From a virus: a stretch of DNA of 21,838 nucleotides. Both the position numbers and the translations under genes were made by a program. Below are positions 9,125 to 21,838 of the stretch, piece by piece (positions within the stretch are counted from its first letter, which is position 1; the number at the start of each line of letters is the position of its first letter). The stretch spans positions 1 to 21,838 of IMG/VR virus record IMGVR_UViG_3300003690_000112; one strand, written 5' to 3'. The notes below the pieces were generated by a model. It saw only the letters and a list, made by a program, of their open reading frames with translations, had not been told where the DNA came from and searched no databases.

Positions 9125-9344
9125 TCATATAAACCACCCAAAACATTATAATATTAATTGGGCTGGGGAACAGGCCATCGAGACATTTGATTACATTAAT
9201 TCTTGGAAAATGGGATATGCCGAAGGCAATATAATTAAATACGTTTCTAGACACAGATATAAGGGAAAAGCAATACAAGATTTAAAAAAAGCACGTTGGT
9301 ACTTAAATAAGATGATTGAAGAATTAGAAAGTGAAAATCGGTGA
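9114..9344 (+). CDS. DUF3310 (SaV-like) protein
   Basis: This 76-residue protein carries the recognisable DUF3310 order: an NHPKHYN start (about 7-13), EAIETFDYI-type helix (here QAIETFDYINSW), the GNIIKYVSRH centre (38-47), and a KAIQDLKKARWYLNKMIEEL C-terminal helix. The family is widespread in phages and appears as a distant relative of nucleotide pyrophosphohydrolase-type helical folds; its activity is not established. Full length for the family. Its last codons overlap the following MKIGDL gene by 14 nt. Confidence 0.88.
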   Translation: MSDDHINHPKHYNINWAGEQAIETFDYINSWKMGYAEGNIIKYVSRHRYKGKAIQDLKKARWYLNKMIEELESENR

Positions 9345-9510
9345 TTTAATTAGACATACTCGTTCCGGTAGAATCGCGTTAATATTAAATATATTTGAAC
9401 GTAATCATAAAACATACGCAAAACTTTTATTTTCTGGTGAAGCTTCTGTTACTCAAGCGCCTTTTAAAATTTTGAAAGATCGCTGGGAAATTTTAAATGA
9501 AAGTGGGTGA
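9331..9510 (+). CDS. Small MKxGDL-family protein
   Basis: This 59-codon gene starts at GTG (GTGAAAATCGGTGATTTAAT) inside the end of the DUF3310 gene. The product starts MKIGDLIRHTRSGRIALIL, then NIFERNHKTYAKLLF and a closing DRWEILNESG, the strand pattern of a small SH3-like barrel. The GGT-GAT codons for Gly-Asp supply the TGA stop of the upstream gene in another frame. The same 14-nt overlap design recurs at its own 3' end. No clear Shine-Dalgarno is visible, so re-initiation by terminating ribosomes is likely. Function unknown. Confidence 0.65.
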   Translation: MKIGDLIRHTRSGRIALILNIFERNHKTYAKLLFSGEASVTQAPFKILKDRWEILNESG

Positions 9511-9676
9511 TTTAATACGCGATATATATGGTTCTATGGGGATCATTTTAGAGATAAAAGAATATAAAGATATTAAGGTTTATAAAGTGTATTGGTCAAC
9601 AGATAAAATAAAAATTCAAGTCAATGAAGAGAAAGTTGTTTTTTTAGATAACTGGGAGGTTATAAGTGATAAATAA
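9497..9676 (+). CDS. Small MKxGDL-family protein
   Basis: A second 59-codon member directly follows, starting at ATG in ATGAAAGTGGGTGATTTAAT and overlapping its neighbour by 14 nt. The product begins MKVGDLIRDIYGSMGIIL, continues EIKEYKDIKVYKVYW, and ends with DNWEVISDK. The shared GDLIR start, a GIIL strand, a YKVYW strand and a final WEV/WEI strand indicate tandem duplication and divergence from the gene at 9331. It overlaps the start of the IMP dehydrogenase gene by 11 nt. Function unknown. Confidence 0.65.
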   Translation: MKVGDLIRDIYGSMGIILEIKEYKDIKVYKVYWSTDKIKIQVNEEKVVFLDNWEVISDK

Positions 9677-11310: not shown

Positions 11311-11931
11311 ATGAGTAATAAAAACAAGCAACTTTTAAATGAGTCAACCGTGCGCCGTTTTATGGGACTAGCCGGAATTGGTGCCCTTACTGACAATGCT
11401 GTAGAAAAGCTACAAGAGCAGGATGAGCTAGAAGCTCCTCCTGAAGAAGCAGCTCCTCCTATGGATGCGGCCGAAGAAGAACTGCCACCTGATATGGAAG
11501 GCGAATTGGAAGGCGAATTGGAAGGCGAAGAAGAAGGCCCTGCAGACATTGATTTAAGTCAAAAAGAAGCAGAAGTCATCGTCGCCCTTGGCAAGCGATT
11601 AGAACCCGAAATGCCCGAAGAAGGCGATGAAGGCCTTGAAGGGGAAGTTGAAATGCCTCCTGGTCCTGAAATGCCTCCTGGTCCTGAAATGCCTCCTGGT
11701 CCTGAAATGGGCATGCCCCCAGAAGAAGAAACTGCTATGGTACAAGAAGCTTTTATAAGAGAGCTTTCTCATCGTGTAGCCCGTAGAGCGACCCGGGAAC
11801 AAACATTTAACGAGGAACTTTCACGTCGCGTTGCTGGTAGAGTTAAAAAAGAGCAAATTATTAATGAGACTATGAAAAGAGTTGCAAAACGCCTAACTCC
11901 ACGCAGACGCCGAAGCCGCCGCCGCCGCTAA
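11311..11931 (+). CDS. Virion-type low-complexity protein with prohead-protease-like sites
   Basis: This 206-residue protein has three parts. The head reads KQLLNESTVRRFMGLAGIGA (6-25), with an LNE site followed by a conserved-looking helix. The middle (35-140) is very acidic and Pro-rich, with GELEGELEGE and three PPGPEM units. The tail has three related helices of about 18 residues, sharing ELSxRVAxRxxxEQ, each preceded by an NE or RE site (FNE, INE), and it finishes in RRRRSRRRR. Acidic scaffolding and Arg-rich DNA-binding ends are typical of internal head or prohead core proteins. It follows the late-type motif at 11266 and a good ribosome site. Function inferred, family not named. Confidence 0.75.
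   Translation: MSNKNKQLLNESTVRRFMGLAGIGALTDNAVEKLQEQDELEAPPEEAAPPMDAAEEELPPDMEGELEGELEGEEEGPADIDLSQKEAEVIVALGKRLEPEMPEEGDEGLEGEVEMPPGPEMPPGPEMPPGPEMGMPPEEETAMVQEAFIRELSHRVARRATREQTFNEELSRRVAGRVKKEQIINETMKRVAKRLTPRRRRSRRRR
11497..11523 (+). repeat. 12-bp tandem repeat coding GELE units
   Basis: Two full copies of GAAGGCGAATTG (11497-11508 and 11509-11520) plus a partial third run in frame and encode the Glu-Gly-Glu-Leu units of the acidic middle of the 11311 product. Copies are identical, suggesting recent slippage. Confidence 0.85.
11650..11703 (+). repeat. 18-bp tandem repeat, three identical copies
   Basis: Three perfect copies of GAAATGCCTCCTGGTCCT lie end to end at 11650-11667, 11668-11685 and 11686-11703, in frame, encoding EMPPGP units. 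Perfect identity implies recent expansion and likely copy-number variation among relatives. Confidence 0.95.
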
Positions 11932-11944
11932 AAGGAACGATATC

Positions 11945-13021
11945 ATGTCTAAAAAGAAAGCACTTTTAACAGAACAAGAGGTTAAAAGATTCGCAAAGTT
12001 GTCAGGTGTTAAAATCGTAGAGAAAATGGTCTACCATCAAGGCAAGCTCTACGACGACGGCCAACCTTCGAAGGCCCCAGCGGCATCATCGACGGGTCCA
12101 GCGGCACCAGGGCCACCCAAGTTCGCAAAAATGAAGCATCTTATGACCCCGGACCCATCCCCAGAAGCTGCTCCTGAAGCGGAAGCTGCTCCTGAAGCGG
12201 AAGCTGCTCCTGAAGCGGAACCAGCACCAGAAGCAGAGCCTGGAGGTGAGTACATATATGATGAAGAAGGCAATCCAATTGGTAACTTAGGTCCACCGCC
12301 CGCCGCCGCTGCACTACCGGCGCTAGCAGCAGCGCCTGGGCCTTCACGCGCCACCGGACGCAGACGGAGGGCTCAAAGAGCAAGCCGACGTGGTTTGGGG
12401 ATATTGAGCGGCGCCGCCGTCGAGGGAGTTACAGATTATGGCTCATTCTATAGTGCATTAGATAACGCTGGTTTATCTGGTATGTTGAAATACGGTCGCG
12501 GATCTGGAAAAGATAAAACTTGGGGCCCTAAACATGCCGCCGCTCTTCGCGCTTTACAAAAGAAAAAGGCGTTTACTCCAACCCCTGGATTTGAAGTGGA
12601 CTTGACCAAGACCGTGAGTCCAGCCGAACTTCTTGCGACTAAGTTGGCCGCACGCATACCAGGAGGTGCGGAGCCACTTAGTGCAGACCAGCTAGCAGTG
12701 CTGAGCACCCCACAAAGGGATATAGAAGCGATGCGCGCAGGAGGGCCCCCGTCATCCCGCGGCATTAAAGGCGGATACAAGACAGGCCAGGGGTGGGTTC
12801 CTGATAGTCTTGCACTGCAACAGCATTTAAAAACTGGCGAACTTCCTGGCACAGAAGCACAAAGGCAGTTTCGTAGTCTTTTAAAAAGACCCCGAAGGGC
12901 CCGCCGCTTTCTAGCGCAAGGAGAAACGCCGCTGCAAGAAAATAAAGGCTTTTCTCTCCAAGAAGAAAAACTAATTCAAGAACTCACCAGACGTATCTTG
13001 AAAAAATACTTTAAAAAATAA
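11945..13021 (+). CDS. Virion-type protein, Ala/Pro-rich, with prohead-protease-like N-terminus
   Basis: This 358-residue protein starts KKALLTEQEVKRFAKLSGVK (4-23), the same plan as the 11311 product: LTE site then a [VK]RF helix. Residues 40-135 are Ala/Pro/Glu-rich with an EAAPEA repeat. A basic patch GRRRRAQRASRRG (138-150) precedes a compact-looking region (155-230) with YGSFYSALDNAGLSGMLKYG and GPKHAAALRALQKK. The tail ends in LQEEKLIQELTRRILKKYFK, resembling the repeated C-terminal helix of 11311. The gene is distinctly more GC-rich than its neighbours, largely from its Ala, Pro, Gly and Arg content. Paralogy with 11311 and packaging in the head are inferred. ATG follows AAAGGAACGATATC. 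Confidence 0.72.
   Translation: MSKKKALLTEQEVKRFAKLSGVKIVEKMVYHQGKLYDDGQPSKAPAASSTGPAAPGPPKFAKMKHLMTPDPSPEAAPEAEAAPEAEAAPEAEPAPEAEPGGEYIYDEEGNPIGNLGPPPAAAALPALAAAPGPSRATGRRRRAQRASRRGLGILSGAAVEGVTDYGSFYSALDNAGLSGMLKYGRGSGKDKTWGPKHAAALRALQKKKAFTPTPGFEVDLTKTVSPAELLATKLAARIPGGAEPLSADQLAVLSTPQRDIEAMRAGGPPSSRGIKGGYKTGQGWVPDSLALQQHLKTGELPGTEAQRQFRSLLKRPRRARRFLAQGETPLQENKGFSLQEEKLIQELTRRILKKYFKK
12164..12217 (+). repeat. 18-bp tandem repeat, three identical copies
   Basis: Three perfect copies of GAAGCTGCTCCTGAAGCG occupy 12164-12181, 12182-12199 and 12200-12217, in frame, encoding EAAPEA units; a degenerate continuation (EPAPEA) follows. The unit length equals that of the unrelated repeat at 11650. 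Confidence 0.95.
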
Positions 13022-17955: not shown

Positions 17956-18270
17956 ATGAACAAGAGAGTGAATATCACATATTCTGTAGAGTTTGATGAT
18001 ATACTTAAAACCGTTGGAGACATGCTCCAGAAGAAACACAGCGTCACGTATCGATCTTTGGATAAAGATTTTAATGATTTGTTAGTTTCTTTAACAAAAG
18101 ATCGCGAAAGAGAAGCAATTAAAAAAGTAGACGAAATGAGAATTAAATTATTTAATGTTGATCTTTGTCTAAGTGATTGCTCAAATATTCTTAAAGGATA
18201 TAGAAAAGAACTTCTAGAAAGTACAACTTCAAAGAAAGAAGAAAAAGAAGAAGAAAATGAAAGCGGGTGA
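17956..18270 (+). CDS. Hypothetical phage protein, helical
   Basis: This 104-residue protein starts after a strong AGAGGTGG Shine-Dalgarno. It opens with a short strand MNKRVNITYSVEFDDIL and continues as helices: KTVGDMLQKK, DLLVSLTKDREREAIKKV and DEMRIKLFNVDLCLSDCSN. Two Cys (about 74 and 78) lie four apart, C-x3-C. The C-terminus is a Lys/Glu tail ending ENESG. It overlaps the next MKxGDL gene by 14 nt exactly as at 9497. Function unknown. Confidence 0.75.
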   Translation: MNKRVNITYSVEFDDILKTVGDMLQKKHSVTYRSLDKDFNDLLVSLTKDREREAIKKVDEMRIKLFNVDLCLSDCSNILKGYRKELLESTTSKKEEKEEENESG

Positions 18271-18496
18271 TTTAGTATACATTCCATCAGAAGTTACATT
18301 GTTACAATTTAATTCAATAGAAGGCTTTGATCCTGAAAAAACTTATATTGGTCCATCTCCAGTAAAAACACACAAACTTGAAAAACCGGCAAATCTTTTA
18401 TTGACTGAAATGACAGCATTAGATAAAACTCATATTAAAGTCTGGTATAATGGAGATGAATGGTATGTTAATAAAAAAGATATTAACGTTTTATAG
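18257..18496 (+). CDS. Small MKxGDL-family protein
   Basis: This 79-residue member starts MKAGDLVYIPSEVTLLQF and ends KVWYNGDEWYVNKKDINVL, a strand-rich design like the others but with an inserted proline-rich middle (ETKTYIGPSPVKTHK-type). It overlaps the upstream gene by 14 nt, where GGT-GAT again provides the foreign TGA. Role unknown; the W-V-N ending parallels the WEV/WEI endings of 9331 and 9497. Confidence 0.7.
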   Translation: MKAGDLVYIPSEVTLLQFNSIEGFDPEKTYIGPSPVKTHKLEKPANLLLTEMTALDKTHIKVWYNGDEWYVNKKDINVL

Positions 18497-20515: not shown

Positions 20516-21136
20516 GTGAACTTAACTTACCCGGAAGAATTAGAACTTGAAAAAAACAAATTGATACTTAGCAAAATATTAGGGAAAAATCAAGTTCATA
20601 TCGACGTTCAAAAATTTTCACTTATAGAAGACTTTGATAGCAATTTGTCATATATATCTTGTGATTTAAAATTTGTTTTTAAGGGAAAAGAAAAAACTAT
20701 CAATATTGAAGGGACAGGAAAAGGAACTATAGATGCTTTGCTAAATGGAATGTTAGCTTATTTTTCAACTGATTACGTCTCTTTGCAAATGATTCAATTG
20801 TGTGATTTTTTAGTCAATGTTGATTTTAAGAAAAGCAGGAATATGATTAATACTGACGCTCCAGTCGAAGTAAAAATAGCACTTAAGGGCGACGGCTTAG
20901 CTAAATTTTATTTTAAGGCAAGATCAAATTCTTTGGTAAAAGCAGGAATAAAAGCGGTTTGTGACGCTATAGAATATTTGATAAATGCAGAAATAGCTGT
21001 TTTGCAACTTCGTGAAGATATTTTATTGGCAAAAAAGAGGCAGAGAACAGATTTAGAAAATAATTATGTATGTATGCTTCTAGAACTAGTTAAATTTATT
21101 CCTTATTCAGAAGCAATAAAGAAGAAAAGGAATTAA
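20516..21136 (+). CDS. Stand-alone domain resembling the LeuA (isopropylmalate synthase) regulatory domain
   Basis: This 206-residue protein, GTG start, contains a segment at about 50-165 resembling the C-terminal allosteric dimer domain of 2-isopropylmalate synthase. Signs are INIEGTGKGTIDALLNGMLA (62-81, like the GxGPVDA helix), IQLCDFLVNVD (93-103), TDAPVEVKIALKGDG (113-127), and a helix SLVKAGIKAVCDAIEYLIN (139-157) like the SxDIxxASxxAxxxAIN ending. The catalytic TIM barrel is absent. It might sense an amino acid, or simply reuse the fold. No Shine-Dalgarno is clear and it follows the PAP2 gene by three bases. The function is unknown and resemblance is by pattern. Confidence 0.6.
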   Translation: MNLTYPEELELEKNKLILSKILGKNQVHIDVQKFSLIEDFDSNLSYISCDLKFVFKGKEKTINIEGTGKGTIDALLNGMLAYFSTDYVSLQMIQLCDFLVNVDFKKSRNMINTDAPVEVKIALKGDGLAKFYFKARSNSLVKAGIKAVCDAIEYLINAEIAVLQLREDILLAKKRQRTDLENNYVCMLLELVKFIPYSEAIKKKRN

Positions 21137-21162: not shown

Positions 21163-21191
21163 TTGACAATTAATAATTTTTATGGCACAAT
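21163..21191 (+). promoter_or_regulatory. Sigma-70 promoter, TTGACA - 17 - CACAAT with extended -10
   Basis: TTGACA (21163-21168), 17-nt spacer, CACAAT (21186-21191), with TG at 21183-21184 one base before the hexamer. A transcript starting near 21198 would carry a leader of about 190 nt before the 21390 gene. Confidence 0.75.
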
Positions 21192-21214
21192 ATATATAGA
21201 AATAGGAGTACGTT

Positions 21215-21229
21215 ATGAATCTAGATTGA
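21215..21229 (+). CDS. Possible leader mini-ORF (four codons)
   Basis: AGGAG (21204-21208) lies six bases before ATG 21215, an excellent ribosome site for an ORF that reads M-N-L-D and stops at TGA. It sits at the front of the structured leader. It may be a leader peptide or a ribosome loading site that affects the downstream fold; it could also be coincidental. Confidence 0.35.
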   Translation: MNLD

Positions 21230-21245
21230 CATAATACAAAATCAC

Positions 21246-21369
21246 AGGACAGTAGAAATAGGACTATTGAAGGCGATATAATTTTTATCGAGTTGAAATG
21301 AGCCTAGTCATCTTCTCGGGCAAAGAACAAAAGAGAGGGCTGTCCTATTTTTTATTTTTTTATTTTTTA
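21246..21369 (+). ncRNA. Structured leader or small RNA ending in a T-run
   Basis: AGGACAG (21246-21252) pairs perfectly with CTGTCCT (21340-21346), and a U-G pair extends it inward, enclosing about 87 nt. Inside, CGATA (21274-21278) pairs with TATCG (21286-21290), GACTA (21262-21266) with TAGTC (21305-21309), and GCCT (21302-21305) offers an alternative with GGGC (21318-21321). A T-rich tail (21347-21369) follows directly, as in an intrinsic terminator. With its own sigma-70 promoter it could be a stand-alone RNA, an attenuator or a riboswitch-like leader for the 21390 gene. The family is not recognised. Confidence 0.55.
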
Positions 21370-21389
21370 ACAAAAGAGAAACAAGATAT

Positions 21390-21681
21390 GAGTAACAATA
21401 AAAGAATCGTATGTGCTGATGGGTTCAACATGAGCGTACAAGCTAGCGAAACAAATTACTGTAGTCCTCGCGTAGATCACGCAGAGCGATACACCGCAGT
21501 TGAAGTGGGATTTCCATCCCAAATGGAACCTTTGCTTATGGAATGGGTAGAAAATGAAAACATGCCCACTGAAACGGTTTATGGATGGGTGCCTTCAGAG
21601 CGAGTTGCACTTGTTTGTGCCAAACACGGAGGTGTTGTTGAAGGCGAATTGCCTGCTGGTGTGGTTCGTCTAAATTCATAA
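21390..21681 (+). CDS. Conserved small phage protein of unknown function
   Basis: This 96-residue protein starts at ATG 21390 (MSNNKRIVCADGFNMSVQAS); an in-frame upstream ATG at 21298 would lie within the structured RNA and add a low-complexity Phe-rich stretch. Further features are NYCSPR, VEVGFPSQMEPLLMEWVEN, and VYGWVPSERVALVCAKHGG. The motif succession ADGFxMSVQA..YCSPR..EVGFPS is one I associate with small conserved phage proteins without assigned function. AAAGAG-type ribosome site about 12 bases upstream is weak, so leader structure may control translation. Its TAA shares one base with the next ATG. Confidence 0.8.
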
Positions 21682-21838
21682 TGAAGATTGGTGATTTGAT
21701 AAAGCACAAAAGAAATGGAGTGCGCGGTTTAATTGTAGACGTTTTTGAAGCGGCTCTTGGCGATATTATATGCTATATTTATTGGCTTGATGAATGGGAA
21801 TCCAAAACAAATCATTTTGAAAACGAGTTGGAGCTAGT
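21681..21838 (+). CDS. Small MKxGDL-family protein, 3' end outside window
   Basis: The first 52 codons of a gene starting MKIGDLIKHKRNGVRGLIVD and continuing with a strand DIICYIYWLDEWE. It is the fifth MKxGDL member here, closest in the first ten residues to 9331 and 9497. The ATG shares one base with the previous stop (TAATG). The gene is cut by the window end, not broken. Confidence 0.7.
   Translation, partial: MKIGDLIKHKRNGVRGLIVDVFEAALGDIICYIYWLDEWESKTNHFENELEL

Follow-up and report, generated by a model that had tools for sequence, protein, structure and literature searches.

The leader and its neighbourhood

The window analysed here is the whole of an IMG/VR virus contig, 21,838 nucleotides long and AT-rich overall, and it carries genes for a DnaE-type polymerase, an IMP dehydrogenase-like protein and GroEL, the DnaE and GroEL assignments being backed by similarity searches. 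ARAGORN detected no tRNA or tmRNA gene in the window. Two proline/alanine/glutamate-rich low-complexity proteins are encoded at 11311-13021, where the DNA is locally GC-rich (54% G+C in 12001-13000). Several small proteins that start with MKxGDL(V/I), often in adjacent copies, are encoded at 18257-18496, 9331-9676 and 21681-21836, and relatives such as contig L002 possess long arrays of them.

The leader considered below lies between two genes. On its 5' side is a stand-alone LeuA_dimer-domain gene (20516-21136; PF08502, E 7.8e-7), itself preceded by a PAP2 phosphatase gene. This phage-encoded gene comprises the allosteric (leucine-sensing dimerisation) domain of LeuA with the catalytic part absent; homologues were found in nine of the GroEL-bearing relatives, and those of L009, L012, L016 and L017 have a PAP2 phosphatase gene as neighbour. 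On the 3' side, at 21388-21681 of the + strand (as are all features described below), is a gene for a 97-aa phage protein of unknown function, the CxDGFxMSVQA family, with homologues in 74 viral contigs. Its predicted fold is confident (pLDDT 96) and has no match in the PDB, and so gives no functional clue. Upstream of this gene, and in frame with it, an ATG at 21298 would allow a longer reading. Since the homologues begin at about the position of 21388, we do not regard the extension as real coding sequence and treat the leader as non-coding, in agreement with an earlier, sequence-only reading of this DNA, which saw no other gene in the stretch.

The leader begins with a sigma-70-type promoter at 21163-21191, consisting of TTGACA (21163-21168), a 17-nt spacer and CACAAT (21186-21191) with an extended TG. 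It was located as that reading had claimed and matches the consensus at 10 of 12 positions. Its −10 element is weak, and over the full scan promoter matches were little commoner than chance predicts (40 sites against 30 expected); the case for this promoter therefore comes mainly from relatives: L012 has TTGACA-17-TATTAT ahead of its RNA, and L124 and L126 have TTGACA-17-TATCAT between apparently the same two genes. By its position, transcription would be expected to start near 21198. A Shine-Dalgarno sequence, AGGAG (21204-21208), follows and is separated by 6 nt from the four-codon mini-ORF ATG AAT CTA GAT TGA (MNLD; 21215-21229), ribosome site and ORF (together 21204-21229) both lying where they had been described. 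The mini-ORF ends 16 nt 5' of the stem that closes the remainder of the element.

The closing stem, P1, pairs 21246-21253 with 21339-21346 over a span of 101 nt. It contains the exact 7-bp match AGGACAG (21246-21252)/CTGTCCT (21340-21346) noticed earlier and extends to 8 pairs including one G-U; analogous P1 pairs are present in every relative described below. An interrupted T-run of 6, 7 and 6 T (21347-21369) begins 1 nt past the 3' strand, from 21348. When we required at least 7 pairs with at least 4 G/C, arms 40-120 nt apart and T's thereafter, this combination appeared just once on the + strand of the entire 21.8-kb window, and dinucleotide shuffling of the gap produced it in only 2 of 2000 trials. 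As in an intrinsic terminator, a G+C-containing stem stands directly before a U-run, and the tail may well terminate transcription; because P1 closes an 85-nt interior, it is absent from a standard short-loop terminator scan.

Within P1 the fold model predicts at least two inner helices, in keeping with what had been seen in the letters alone. The first, the hairpin CGATA-TAATTTT-TATCG (21274-21290; pair probability about 0.97), occupies the place of the relatives' P2 hairpin. The 3' half (21300-21338) reads GAGCC-TAG-TCAT and then forms the P5 hairpin CTTCTC/GAGAGG (21312-21317/21333-21338), with GCAAAGAACA (21320-21329) in its loop and P1' directly after it; it resembles the 3' domain of the family described below. 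Both helices have modelled pair probabilities of at least 0.96. Relative to shuffled sequences the fold energy has a z of −2.46 for 21236-21356 and of only −1.48 for the whole supposed transcript, in whose predicted fold the Shine-Dalgarno sequence is mostly paired, with the T-rich tail as its partner.

No close homologue of the exact leader was found among annotated phages by DNA, among viral contigs by exact 21-mer or among the relatives, and the window's own pairs and inner helices are therefore without covariation support of their own. Hits of the leader in annotated phages were chance AT-rich pieces only, and in the first four homologues of the downstream gene the leader is not conserved alongside it. 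The Rfam covariance search proposed with the earlier reading was run and gave no match to the window leader at gathering level; permissive matches looked like chance. A tRNA-like reading of the 7-bp stem was rejected, as the T-arm is absent and ARAGORN was negative.

A covarying RNA family in related marine phages

Among the GroEL-bearing relatives, L012 and L016 led us to an undescribed RNA family in related marine phages. In L012 a promoter is followed by an RNA with a covarying closing stem, then by a T-run and by the downstream gene known from the window. By two DNA-pattern scans, a covariance model (R1) and searches of whole virus records we gathered 20 distinct members, all on metagenomic contigs, several of them incomplete. 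The RNA occurs once per record, apart from two copies in G044. L012, L106 and L117 have it at the locus of the window element, directly in front of the gene for the same small protein, which in L106 and L117 shares 64-65% identity with its window counterpart; the other 17 members are elsewhere.

P1 varies in sequence and pairs in every member, spanning 112-186 nt with 8-21 positions as delimited. Inside it, the P2 hairpin has a loop of 10 nt, and the six bases at the centre of this loop form a 6-bp pseudoknot with the strand just before a U[G/A]G. Across the 20 members, 119 of 120 pseudoknot cells are paired, compared with a shuffled mean of 83, and none of 2000 partner shuffles scored as high. 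The 3' domain is conserved and ends in a hairpin with the loop GNNNAGNACA directly before P1', although it is divergent in L232 and L234. In a 13-member alignment 98% of cells pair, eight pairs have changed on both sides, and the covariation score was reached in none of 500 shuffles and collapsed in slid controls. The compensatory changes that had been suggested as a check on leaders upstream of the same protein are thus strong for L012, L106, L117 and the wider family. A T-run after P1' is also found in L012, L125, L199 and L218.

The family corresponds to no model in release 15 of Rfam, and the members tested against Rfam gave no match. Searches of a phage collection with two family RNAs by blastn returned nothing, and literature searches did not find a published description. 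One degenerate pattern, run against a collection of 84,980 genomes to look for host copies, yielded no accepted bacterial copy; its sole match, in an Alteromonas sequence, looks like chance and has no family 3' domain. L240, which reached 18.7 bits with R2 (the covariance model of the 20-member family) and has no core, was likewise treated as chance.

Five of the 20 members have a Shine-Dalgarno-equipped mini-ORF of two to five codons ahead of P1 (L016 MQ, L201 MKLM, L204 MRDL, L218 MIII and L238 MKPYS), an optional feature of the family. The rule used here (ATG, one to four further codons and a stop; Shine-Dalgarno 4-10 nt ahead; stop 5-20 nt before P1) was set after examples had been seen, which makes its statistics somewhat optimistic: shuffled upstream segments gave a mean of 0.16 mini-ORFs and a maximum of 2 in 1000 rounds, and random positions conformed in 0.23% of cases. 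The window mini-ORF conforms as well, as do 40 of 5000 shuffles. In L106 and L199 the upstream gene's own stop codon lies in, or right after, P1. To judge from these positions, the pattern of stops and mini-ORFs suggests that ribosomes terminate right at the entrance to the RNA.

The genomic context of the family varies. The RNA has its own upstream promoter in L012, L016, L232 and L243, is inside an operon in L106, L117, L125, L218 and L223, and stands last in an operon, ahead of a new TTGACA-type promoter, in L199, L201, L204, L209, L219, L237, L238, L241 and L242. In L237, L241 and L242 the 3' strand of P1 holds CTTGACA, so that P1 and a possible −35 box for the promoter that follows share sequence; right behind the RNA of L199, L201, L219 and L238 is a recurring phage promoter form, TTGACA ... 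TATGAGATAAT. In L232 and L234 the RNA is directly 5' of a phage tmRNA gene. These tmRNA genes (L232:1612-2022 and L234:1615-1926) encode the tags ANDNVEFDYALAA and ANDNVEFDYAIAA, respectively, and a permuted-tmRNA match over the L232 RNA was discarded because it derives mainly from the adjacent tmRNA. Such variety favours a free-standing RNA over a switch for one gene.

This variety bears on whether the window leader acts only in cis, with P1 and the T-run serving as a conditional terminator or attenuator for the 97-aa gene and a ribosome on the mini-ORF, or a ligand, as the switch. Promoter, leader and gene do stand in line, a related RNA abuts the same gene in L012, L106 and L117, and the predicted pairing of the Shine-Dalgarno sequence with the T-rich tail means that ribosome binding could compete with the fold. 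We nevertheless find a purely cis-acting leader doubtful, though possible. At about 70 of the 74 loci of the gene such a leader is absent, the gene in most relatives sitting directly behind another gene, and most family members precede other genes, a tmRNA or a fresh promoter, which speaks against riboswitch control of this one gene; a riboswitch-like element had been among the options of the sequence-only reading. L124 and L126 are sites without the RNA: apparently the same upstream and downstream genes (the upstream one judged from its C-terminal end only) are 65 nt apart with a promoter only between them, and these phages have the family RNA elsewhere in the genome (L201/L210). They show that the 97-aa gene does not need the RNA at this site. 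An attenuator had been another of those options, and one that works through a leader peptide is also unlikely. MNLD has no run of one codon, the repeated codons that would mark an amino-acid attenuator, and the relatives' mini-peptides are unrelated.

Relationship of the window element to the family

The window element and the family have in common the locus, the promoter, the mini-ORF, the closing stem, the T-run and a similar 3' half. Among all 52-mers of the window, on either strand, the one at 21289-21340 looks most like the family, with a score of 16.6; L232 and L234, which diverge most among the accepted members, have leave-one-out scores of 19.9 and 18.9. Mean similarity of the 3' half to the 20 members exceeded that of all 2000 shuffles, with some unrelated stretches, many of them GC-rich, coming close. 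GCAAAGAACA lies in the loop of the hairpin directly before P1', where the family has the loop GNNNAGNACA, but the window's loop is 15 nt long rather than the family's 10 and the stem differs. The window also has the UAG variant found after the pseudoknot strand in L232, L234, L243 and L244. Unlike the family, it has no P2 loop pseudoknot and no CGCG...GCG core: no upstream hexamer pairs in register, at five or more of six positions, with the strand directly before UAG. Its covariance scores are not significant. R1 gave no match, and R2 gave 6.7 bits (E 2.4, rank 4-5 within the window), the E-values of such home-made models being rough. Taking these comparisons of sequence together, we consider the window element a probable divergent relative of the family but stop short of counting it as a member.

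It is very improbable, in our estimation, that an unrelated second RNA family has replaced the pseudoknot RNA here and come by convergence to a layout that is alike in outline. The different inner hairpin, the missing pseudoknot and the lack of a covariance-model match are what such a replacement would leave. Against it, the 3'-half similarity is in the right register, and the mini-ORF position, the promoter and the gene are the same.

A more ordinary arrangement would consist of a promoter for the next gene and a large-loop terminator of the upstream operon, the inner helices and mini-ORF being due to chance. AT-rich DNA easily gives promoter-like and stem-like matches, the whole-transcript z score is modest, and in L124 and L126 a promoter is all that is present here. 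Yet the stem would end transcripts from the promoter just upstream of it, the stem with its T-run and a mini-ORF at the family distance are jointly improbable by the shuffles given above, and the 3' half is similar to that of the covarying family, which also occurs at this locus. On balance we judge this arrangement distinctly unlikely.

Our preferred explanation, to which we attach roughly even confidence, is that the element is a small-RNA gene doubling as a 5' leader, which holds the syntenic position of the family RNA and is probably related to it, though diverged. RNA polymerase would start near 21198, and within the first 50 nt a ribosome would load at the strong site of the mini-ORF and finish 16 nt before the folded body (21246-21346, closed by P1). 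That ribosome would most likely protect the 5' end of the RNA or block entry into the fold. Most transcripts would stop at P1 and the T-run, which would leave a stable RNA about 150-170 nt long that might be released as free RNA, and read-through would allow expression of the downstream 97-aa protein. The window copy itself would descend from the pseudoknot family. This scheme builds on direct observations, namely the sequence parts, the family and its covariation, the recurrence of the mini-ORF and the shared locus. Against it weigh the insignificant covariance scores, the absence of the pseudoknot in register, the negative searches for a close homologue of the exact leader, the RNA-less sites of L124 and L126, a whole-transcript fold only mildly better than shuffles and, in that fold, a mostly paired Shine-Dalgarno sequence. 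The varied context of the family makes us prefer a free RNA that ends at a terminator and carries a 5' tag for ribosome loading, rather than a riboswitch or a peptide attenuator.

Significance and comparison with known systems

Outside Rfam release 15 there is thus a clearly covarying RNA family of marine phages, present about once per genome in unrelated contexts, and the repeated tiny Shine-Dalgarno-driven ORF before its closing stem suggests that a parked ribosome protects or gates a non-coding RNA. Taken by itself, the copy in the window is diverged and makes a weaker case. We tentatively propose, as an idea more likely wrong than right, a new class of small RNAs, each joining a ribosome-loading mini-ORF and a pseudoknotted body into a functional unit that would influence translation or RNA decay, of the host or of the phage, in trans; the window copy would be a fast-evolving version with its pseudoknot hairpin swapped. 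In two phages the family RNA is beside a phage tmRNA.

6S RNA is known for its size and its closed, rod-like outline, and the present RNA shares both. The covariation of the relatives supports a structured, independently transcribed non-coding element, as had been supposed; the 6S-like character suggested for it found no support, for there was no Rfam match to 6S even at permissive thresholds, and a pseudoknot and a mini-ORF tag set the present family apart. GOLLD and ROOL are likewise phage-encoded structured non-coding RNAs of unknown function. They are several hundred nucleotides long and recognised by Rfam, whereas the present RNA is smaller, about 100-170 nt, and matches no Rfam family. 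The closest parallel to the mini-ORF is the two-codon minigene of axe-txe, likewise a good ribosome site on a few-codon ORF in a leader, which is reported to act in cis on its mRNA, a proposed stabilisation that may come from protection against an endonuclease (PMC8708949). The axe-txe minigene precedes a coding gene, whereas the mini-ORF of the window, known here from sequence, precedes a folded non-coding body.
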